64,000 bases of DNA from Lota lota. Its lineage: Eukaryota > Chordata > Actinopteri > Gadiformes > Lotidae. Under the pieces are notes generated by a model that worked only from the letters and a program-made list of their open reading frames with translations, made no database searches and was not told where the DNA came from. The position numbers were made by a program, and so were the translations under genes. Shown piece after piece: positions 59,422 through 62,333 of the stretch; position 1 is the stretch's first letter; the number at the start of each line of letters is the position of its first letter. The stretch spans positions 1-64,000 of the forward strand of contig JACYXH010000512.1 in NCBI GenBank assembly GCA_026745465.1, written 5' to 3'.

Positions 59422-60197
59422 CTACAACAGACACAGAGACACTGAGGCACCATAACTCCGTAACCCAAACGCAGGGTGGAGGTCCTCCTGGGTGAAGGTG
59501 GACTGGAAGGTGTGGATGTGTGTCAGTGTGTCTGAGGACCCTCCTACACCTGGGGACACTCTGTAGAAGGACAGAGTGCCAGTAGGCCGGTCCAGATACA
59601 CTCCTACTCTGTTAGAGCCAGCGGGGGGGAGACGTATGACTGTACTACTACCGTTGTACCAGGCATAGTAACCATCATCATCACAATCAAGACTCCAGGA
59701 CTTGTTGTTCCCTCCAAGCTCACTGTCATCACCCCCTCCTCTCCTTGTGATTCCTCTGTATGTCACTCCTATAGCAACACGTCCTTTCCACTCTACCTCC
59801 CAGTAACAGCGGCCAGTCAGACCCTCTCTACACAACACCTGGGGCCGGGAGTCAAATCTCTCTGGGTGATCAGGATACGACTGCTCCTCTCTAACCCGCG
59901 TCACCTTTCTGTTGTCCTCAGACAGAGAGAGTTCTCTGTGAGCTGTGTTTGGGTTCAGTGTGAGTTCACAGGCATCTGACGGGAGAACAAGACATGATTA
60001 GCTGCTGAATAATTCTTCATCATCATCATCATCTGATGGGAGAACAAGACATGATTAGCTGCTGAACACACAGGAACACACAGATGAGGTGTTTCCACCT
60101 TCCCCACAGAGCAGATGTTTGGTGTTTTATTATTATTATCCAATGAGAATAAACAGCACTAGCCTACCAGTAATAAGAGCTATAATACATATATGTA

Positions 60198-60229
<32 letters not shown>

Positions 60230-62333
60230 ATGAGGTTCTCCCCACACAATGTACGAGAATTGCTGTGCCGCCACAGAACTTTTCCCGCCACGCGGATATT
60301 TACTGGGCAGCCTAGTTTTTTTCCCATTAATTTCTGAACGGTTCAAAACATGTTTTATTGGAATAACGCTTCAAAAAGCGAAACGAAAACATCAGGAGTC
60401 AGTGCTGTGTGGAGGAAATCTGTGTATTTCAGATCCACTCTCGGTCCGAGTCCGACTCGGTCACAGCAGAGCTTCAATGCATATCAGACGCGCAGTAGAA
60501 AGAAGTGTCAGCTCTGGTTCTGAAGATTTGGAGCAGTGCTGGAAGATCTAGTGTGGCTGTATGATGGCGCCGTTGTGAGAGCTCTCATTGGAAACACGAC
60601 CCACATAAGTTCCAGTAAGACACGTGGCTTTAAATGATCCTAAAACTAAAAAACACTATTTACAATCTACAATGTATCTATCTATCTAACATTGTTATGA
60701 ACAAATCAACAACAATGTTATGAATATATCAACAACAATGTTATGAATATATCAACAACAATGTTATAATTATATCAACAACTATGTTATGAATATATCA
60801 ACAACAATGTTATGAATACATCAACAACAAACATCTCTCATTGGATCCAGATCTTACCAACAACGAGCAGCTCTGCAGTGTGATTGGCCGAGCCAGCGCT
60901 GTTGGTCGCCATGCAGCAGACCGTGTTCACACCAGACTTCACACCTCTGACGAAGAGGAACCCCCTCTCCACCCAGGCCGCAGGCTCTGATTGGTTGTCT
61001 GTGCTGTCCCTCTCCAGGGGCCTCCCGTTGTGTAGCCACTCGACGGTGGGCTCCGGCGTGCCGCCGGCATCGCAGGAGAATTGGGCGGTGTGGCCCACGG
61101 GCAACACCTTGGTAGAGGAGTGGACCTCTGTGATGCTGGGGGCCTCCTCCTTCATGAGCATCACTGAACCAGAAGAAACCAGGACGAGATGAGTGATAAC
61201 CAGAGCTTATAATTCTACTGTTATTATTGTAATTATATTCAGGATGATATGATTTAGACTCACTGAGGCACACGGAGATTACGAGAATACTCAGCAGTAT
61301 GAAGATCAGAGTGACAATGATGTGGGACTTTAGAGCTGTTCAGGAGTAACACACACACACACAAATTCACACTGTGTGGCTATCAATCACAGTCCAGACA
61401 GTCTCCCTACAGTCTGCAGAATCCCTCCCCTTCTTCATGAAACATTCACAACGGCACGCACAGAACATTTTATATATCTCAAATGATATTTAATTTAATT
61501 AATTAATTTAATTATCTCAAATTATATTTGAAATAAGTTCATATTAATAACAAACTTTATTTAATTGTGTTAAATCCATACATCCACTTGATATCACATC
61601 AGTTAAATGAGTAGCCTTTATTAAAACACAAAAATGAGTATTAAAAAAAAACAATTGCACTCTAATTGCAATACCACTAATAACAAGTAATGAAAATACT
61701 AAACCTGTGTTCTGCTACCTAAAGCTACTCTGCACTCTGTCTAGTTGTTCCACATCTATAACAACATATATCATGAAATACACAACTACTTGAGATGCCT
61801 AGTAATAGTCCGTAACTCATGGCCGTAATCACAGGTCGTTTGTTCTGGAAACTTAAATGTGTGCTGTTTGTCTAGAACATACACATGTTGTTATTTAGGA
61901 GAATAAATATGTCTGTGTGTGTTGTTTGTCTAGAACATACACATGTTGTTATTTAGGATAATAAATCTGTCTGTGTGTGCTGTTTGTCTAGAACACACAC
62001 ATGTTGTTATTTGGGAGAATAAATCTGTCTGTGCGGTCGCTGGTTCATCAGGTTGGTCACTTTGGCCAAAAACGTTTGCTAAATGTAAATCTTAAATGTA
62101 TGTAAATGACAACATCTTTTTTTACTGGATTATTTATTTTAAATTCTCTAAAAAGGGCACCTACCACATCTTCTCTTCCTGGTCTCCTGTCTGTCCAAAG
62201 ATGTGTCCTCAGGTTCCTCAGTGAGTCCAGGGTCCAAACACGTGTCCTCAGGTTCCTCAGTGGGTCCAGGGTCCAAAGACGTGTCCTCGGGTTCCTCAGT
62301 GAGTCCAGGGTCCAGTTCATAGATGAGGTCCAT
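59422..62333 (-). CDS. Predicted type II membrane protein with Ig and B30.2 domains, four exons
   Basis: Minus-strand exons 62,333-62,165, 61,335-61,264, 61,163-60,858 and 59,975-59,422 all have GT/AG borders and phase 1 joints. They sum to 1,101 nt (366 aa plus TAG). Exon 1 encodes an acidic tail with three [17 protein letters not shown] repeats and RKRR before the membrane. Exon 2 is the membrane span (IIVTLIFILLSILVISVCL). Exon 3 is an Ig domain (QFSCDAGG, WLHNGRPLERD, TVCCMATNSAG) with sequons NQS and NHT. Exon 4 is a whole PRY-SPRY ([41 protein letters not shown]). The positive-inside rule puts Ig and B30.2 outside the cell or in the lumen, unlike butyrophilins, whose B30.2 is cytosolic. 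The gene is a mirror copy of the left locus minus stalk and lectin exons. Whether exon 3 really splices to exon 4 is inferred from phase. Confidence 0.65.
59976..60857 (-). other. Intron between the Ig and B30.2 exons of the mirror gene
   Basis: The acceptor region is duplicated: GGGAGAACAAGACATGATTA occurs at 59,980 and 60,039. (TA)n covers about 60,183-60,230. 60,240-60,640 is unique, CpG-containing DNA with no recognised gene. 60,690-60,835 has about six units of the 23-bp AACAATGTTATGAATATATC minisatellite. Confidence 0.7.
61336..62164 (-). other. Intron 1 of the mirror gene
   Basis: AT-rich, with three reversed copies of the about 60-bp CTAGAACATACACATGTTGT repeat at 61,855-62,040. It matches the left gene's intron 1 (3,000-3,730), except that the long TG array is missing. 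Confidence 0.75.

Follow-up and report, generated by a model that had tools for sequence, protein, structure and literature searches.

Candidate type II receptors of lectin origin, with Ig and B30.2 exons, in a multigene family of Lota lota

Gene B, on the reverse strand of a 64,000-nucleotide stretch of Lota lota DNA (the window), was compared with its sister copies throughout the genome assembly. With moderate confidence, we regard it as one of a multigene family of type II receptors derived from C-type lectin receptors, with a variable B30.2 domain predicted to face outward. Most of what is known of fish B30.2 domains concerns fast-changing intracellular sensors. If this reading is true, one recognition module is common to cytosolic and surface receptors, and the family bears on how a fish seemingly without MHC class II widens its innate recognition.

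Gene B and its sister in the window

Exon 1 of gene B (62165..62333, 169 nt) carries the start codon and an acidic, predicted cytosolic tail with 13-aa repeats, which ends in RKRRC. This exon recurs in the 20 tails read. Exon 2 (61264..61335, 72 nt, phase 1-1) encodes the membrane span and is followed by intron 2 (61164..61263, 100 nt), where the sister genes carry stalk and lectin exons. Exon 3 (60858..61163, 306 nt, phase 1-1) encodes an I-set Ig domain, and exon 4 (59422..59975, 554 nt) encodes a PRY-SPRY (B30.2) domain and the stop codon TAG. The joined frame gives 366 aa from 1,101 nt, and the internal junctions are all AG/GT in phase 1. The first-pass annotation had proposed four exons on one strand with these phases, this summed length and a TAG end, and exon joining bore this out; its Ig and B30.2 calls were likewise confirmed by Pfam. 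Its reading changes in one respect, as gene B is no isolated oddity and belongs to a lectin-less branch of a large family built on a type II C-type lectin receptor; the exons, phases and domains stood. A chance alignment of the exons is ruled out by the recurrence of the four-exon model in other copies. A 35-bp tandem array of about 35 copies (62709-63918) lies directly upstream of gene B.

The B30.2 domain was detected by Pfam PRY (2.3e-23) and SPRY (3.9e-13). Its structure model had a mean pLDDT of 88.9, and the best structural matches were the PRY-SPRY domains of stonustoxin, TRIM16 and TRIM16L, with stonustoxin as the top solved match. The Ig domain matched Pfam I-set (3.9e-12), and V-set was absent at E 0.01. 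Two features of this domain count against the receptor reading: the usual tyrosine corner is absent when the sequence is read directly, and the structure model is poor (pLDDT 58), too weak to serve as evidence, so it was dropped. By sequence, Roundabout Ig domains were the nearest solved relatives, but single-domain scores were weak and no origin from Roundabout is claimed. No NACHT-LRR or RING-B-box was found in the four exons of gene B. Among 20 tails, 19 have a tyrosine at position 5; compared by eye, it matches neither ITIM nor YxxL.

Gene A (2,812-10,370, forward strand) is a sister of gene B and lies about 50 kb away in the same window. It consists of a tail exon (2812..2941), a membrane span exon (4150..4221), a stalk exon (4866..4916, phase 1-1), a C-type lectin domain (6619..7214) on three exons (6619-6761, 6850-6950 and 7052-7214) with a stop at the end, an Ig exon (8134..8439) that differs from that of gene B at 7 of 306 nt, and an open B30.2 exon (9706..10370) whose C-terminal end is altered. 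The two genes share collinear blocks comprising the upstream region and tail, the span plus 41 bases at the start of intron 2, the Ig exon with its flanks (96.3%) and the B30.2 exon (93.3%). The 3.8 kb of gene A from 4263 to 8101, which hold the stalk and the lectin domain, have no counterpart in gene B.

The gene A lectin domain matched Pfam Lectin_C (1.1e-23). CLEC4M and CD209 were among its best single-domain PDB matches, and the highest-ranking hits of all were to lectin domains within multi-domain receptors, PLA2R for example. Sugar-binding C-type lectins usually carry EPN or QPD, and WND. Exon 7052-7214 shows EPH and AWDG at these motif sites, so the gene A lectin may not bind sugar through calcium. 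A 31-bp tandem array of 43 copies (5258-6535) lies between the stalk and lectin exons.

The sisters share with CD209/DC-SIGN-like and other type II C-type lectin receptors the tail, the span, the stalk and a single C-terminal lectin domain on three exons. They differ from these receptors in the Ig and B30.2 exons that follow downstream in phase. Gene B shares the tail, the span and the type II order but has neither stalk nor lectin domain; judged by its exons, it is derived from this class and not a full member of it.

Copies in the genome and the lectin-less branch

The assembly searched comprises 575 Mb in 867 contigs. Ig exons occurred at no fewer than 150 places (150 scored of 395 candidates). 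Identity to the query in these 150 was 96-100%, with 94 or 95 of its 95 residues aligned; 148 of them were stop-free. A 122-aa frame, the mark of the lectin-less form, was seen at 30 of the same 150 places, and the locus was lectin-less in 11 of 11 such places fetched. The last lectin exon gave 136 matches among 149 candidates, all scored, a few of them partial or distant. At 86 or more of these 136 places, a listed Ig exon follows in the same orientation at a distance of no more than 4 kb. By comparison, among the matches listed, none of the 136 has an Ig exon on the opposite strand and none has one upstream, which shows that the lectin-Ig order is fixed genome-wide. Conversely, at least 90 of the 150 Ig places have a lectin exon within 4 kb upstream. 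The family is multigene and probably contains more than a hundred genes. A 1,780-aa frame around one Ig copy adjoins a run of N and was set aside.

Thirty loci were read in detail, namely 28 fetched loci together with genes A and B. The sample is non-random: 19 loci were top-scoring Ig places, one was taken for its long frame and eight for the 122-aa frame. Thirteen loci carry lectin exons. Another 12 lack them, and there some 100 nt separate the span from the Ig exon. L012 and L014 show a third arrangement (tail-span-stalk-Ig), with lectin exons absent in view. L010, L016 and L028 have Ig and B30.2 exons, and tail, span, stalk and lectin exons were not seen upstream. A B30.2 exon follows the Ig exon in 24 of the 30 loci; six have none within the stretch, which counts against the receptor reading. 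L019 carries two consecutive Ig exons (6801-7085 and 8702-8986). No NACHT match turned up in the first 20 loci, nor among the matches listed for the other 10. Cut-off B30.2 starts were seen upstream in some loci (e.g., L010, L024 and L028).

Intron 2 measures 100-101 nt and is nearly identical in all 12 lectin-less loci. An unrooted tree of the span exon and its flanks, made from a short alignment, placed lectin-bearing and stalk-only copies together (support 0.91) and the lectin-less copies outside. The span tree and the common intron 2 fit one ancestral loss of stalk and lectin followed by expansion, and the lectin-less branch probably has a single origin. A search with span and intron 2 returned at least 40 lectin-less junctions (40 scored of 197 candidates), and in all 40 the Ig exon follows directly.

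Thirty-eight of the 40 lectin-less Ig frames are indel-free and none of the 38 has a stop; their acceptor is AG in 37 and their donor GT in 36. Under drift, frames this intact have a chance of 0.003-0.03 when 32 distinct sequences are treated as independent, which they are not. Nine lectin-less loci show both the tail and the B30.2 exon, and in seven of them the four-exon model is fully open, giving 366 aa in gene B, 372 in L018, 354 in L026, 352 in L030, 340 in L033, 352 in L034 and 351 in L036. In seven lectin-less copies besides gene B the model joins with AG/GT throughout, and six of them are open to the normal end. The seventh, L029, stops prematurely within B30.2. In L035 the frame stays open as far as the fetched sequence extends.

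The open Ig exons and whole models speak against the possibility that the lectin-less copies are by-products, with a lectin receptor terminated by its own stop as the working gene and with Ig and B30.2 copied along as passengers. That possibility draws on the lectin stop, conserved in all 13 lectin-bearing loci read, and on damaged copies, which also weigh against the receptor reading: the B30.2 stop of L029, a frame break in L014 (stalk type), an indel in the Ig exon of L049 and L059, and an odd splice site in L052, L055 and L056. In addition, exons that are not used can be kept fresh in appearance by gene conversion (PMC4852459). On balance, we consider the by-product explanation unlikely.

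Two readings are open at the lectin-bearing loci. Tail, span, stalk and lectin are open to their own stop in all eight such loci with the tail in view (206-220 aa). Tail, span, stalk, Ig and B30.2 are open in seven of the eight; the exception is L013, in whose stretch B30.2 is missing. Because the stalk exon has a phase-1 end and the first lectin exon and the Ig exon have phase-1 starts, the stalk could join either of them. The stalk acceptor of L011 lacks AG where it is expected. Downstream of the lectin stop, poly(A) motifs were uninformative, since copies are about 95% alike over that entire stretch. The paired open readings predict alternative splicing at these loci.

A single chain of lectin, Ig and B30.2 could also arise by a splice inside the last lectin exon, which would make gene B the lectin-less form of that chain. 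In 12 of 13 copies the lectin stop is closely preceded by a phase-1 GT (GAGG|GTCCGT), which would allow this, and the lectin-Ig joint at that GT keeps the frame. Splice donors follow a consensus at +3 and +4, and this site deviates from it at both positions; one copy reads GTCCAT, and the remaining gene A donors are ordinary. The single chain is therefore quite improbable.

The assembly yielded no match to MHC II alpha or beta; 14 control genomes were also blank, and absence is not proven. MHC I matched 100 places in the assembly, mostly on contigs C654 and C823, and had no match in the 14 control genomes. PMC5894186 reports that Gadiformes have lost MHC II and that short tandem repeats are dense in codfishes; it does not mention lectin, B30.2 or SPRY. 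The window is itself rich in tandem repeats, which together with the blank MHC II result would fit a codfish. We tentatively suggest that, in this fish without detectable MHC class II, the lectin family of probably more than 100 genes may serve as a surface repertoire of variable B30.2 sensors. Each full gene could then offer two alternative outer parts (lectin, or Ig with B30.2) on a common tail and span, and the gene B branch would have given up the lectin option.

Variation of the B30.2 exon

The nonsynonymous/synonymous ratio of the B30.2 exon was 2.05 (CI 1.36-3.09) over 21 copies. Similar values were obtained for eight lectin-less copies (1.93, CI 1.23-3.15) and nine lectin-bearing copies (1.85, CI 1.14-3.49); these intervals come from resampling codons and ignore kinship. 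The 21 copies were chosen for an unbroken match to residue 160 or beyond, so frame-broken copies such as L014 and L027 are not among them. One of the 21 contains a stop, where neutral drift at similar divergence predicts 32-44%. Variable positions include 43-45, 63-68, 81-89, 97-119 and 169-177. No claim is made that variable sites lie in loops, as 24 of 38 fall outside strands and helices versus 98 of 183 overall.

The Ig exon gave a ratio of 0.63 over its whole length (CI 0.34-1.23, which includes 1) in a sample picked by span-intron DNA, and 0.45 (CI 0.23-0.97) in the same sample without the first five codons. A ratio of 0.07 was set aside because the loci had been picked by Ig protein similarity. 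For the span exon the ratio was 2.09 with a CI of 0.76-7.43, and positive selection is not claimed.

An NLR-type gene on the reverse strand of the window (18306-25761) has a FISNA-NACHT exon (23872-25761), LRR exons and a B30.2 exon (18306..18859) that is a close relative of the receptor B30.2 exons. In the tree this NLR copy falls among the 21 receptor copies, with weak node support, and its mean silent difference to the receptors is 0.063 versus 0.047 among receptors. This grouping makes an exchange of B30.2 exons between the receptor and NLR families likely. Exchange of B30.2 exons between zebrafish NLR groups is reported in PMC4852459, and an excess of amino-acid change in B30.2 together with exon exchange is described for finTRIM and NLR genes in PMC4852459 and PMC2657112. 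Exchange with NLR genes weakens the inference that the amino-acid excess arose in the receptors, because open frames and excess alike could be inherited from a translated NLR pool.

Topology, related systems and the rest of the window

Directly before or at the start of the span, gene B carries RKRR and one K; after the span there is one K, followed by two E. In the type II lectin receptors that are known, the C-type lectin domain lies outside the cell. The basic cluster before the span and the lectin on the C-terminal side in the sisters favour an orientation with the N terminus inside and the C terminus outside. The type II topology predicted in the first-pass annotation is supported independently by tail and span exons common to genes with a C-type lectin domain on the C-terminal side. 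Sequons in B30.2 give no evidence on topology, since the NLR copy carries them too. The protein could be inserted the opposite way, with Ig and B30.2 in the cytosol, as B30.2 is in butyrophilins; the tail is acidic except at its end, and most known B30.2 domains work inside the cell. The basic cluster, the single K after the span and the extracellular lectin domain on the same chassis in the sisters make this reversed insertion very improbable.

With the N terminus inside, the gene B protein would have a short acidic cytosolic tail, a single span, and Ig and B30.2 outside. Its chassis (tail and span, with the stalk in the sisters) would be that of a CD209-like C-type lectin receptor, with Ig and B30.2 exons downstream in matching phase. 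The stalk and lectin exons between span and Ig were probably lost in one event common to the gene B branch; as they are missing there, the span would splice directly into Ig. The B30.2 domain, of the fish NLR/finTRIM kind, would form the variable face and most likely binds microbial or cell-surface ligands. The Ig domain may act as spacer or contact, and the tail may relay the signal. We infer that gene B is transcribed and that its product reaches the cell surface, binds ligand and signals.

Butyrophilins have a signal peptide, V-set and C1-like Ig domains outside, a span, and B30.2 inside. Gene B resembles them in combining Ig, one span and B30.2 in one protein, but differs in order, topology and Ig type: it has no signal peptide, its Ig is I-set, and both domains are predicted on the same side. 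The contrast with butyrophilins drawn in the earlier annotation holds, given the exon order tail-span-Ig-B30.2, the I-set Ig and the N terminus, which is acidic and lacks hydrophobic character; exon order and Ig type rule out a butyrophilin origin. Fish NLR-B30.2 and finTRIM genes have a close B30.2 exon with phase-1 entry from the same acceptor region. Their proteins are cytosolic, with NACHT-LRR or RING-B-box, whereas gene B has a span and Ig before B30.2. In stonustoxin and vespryn/ohanin the B30.2 domain lies outside the cell, as predicted for gene B, but these are soluble venom proteins without the span-Ig order. Among the matches listed from the open-access literature, no such receptor was found.

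Several further features were observed in the window. A TRIM gene on the forward strand (36885-38522) encodes RING, B-box, coiled coil and PRY-SPRY in a single open frame, and a second, shorter RING and B-box frame lies at 47013-47603 (forward strand). A B30.2 exon start at 1726 (forward strand) runs for about 55 codons and then breaks into CT repeats; another at 384 (forward strand) is shorter. Seven tRNA matches occur within 3.5 kb on both strands (49824-53324). Frames in 55314-58278 recur at a spacing of 2,038 bases (e.g., 55314-55796 and 57352-57834), and the unit they belong to resembles a retroelement and matches zf-RVT weakly. On the reverse strand, 13307-15061 contains two frames, one for a DDE transposase (13307-14113) and, upstream of it, one for a THAP domain (14690-15061).
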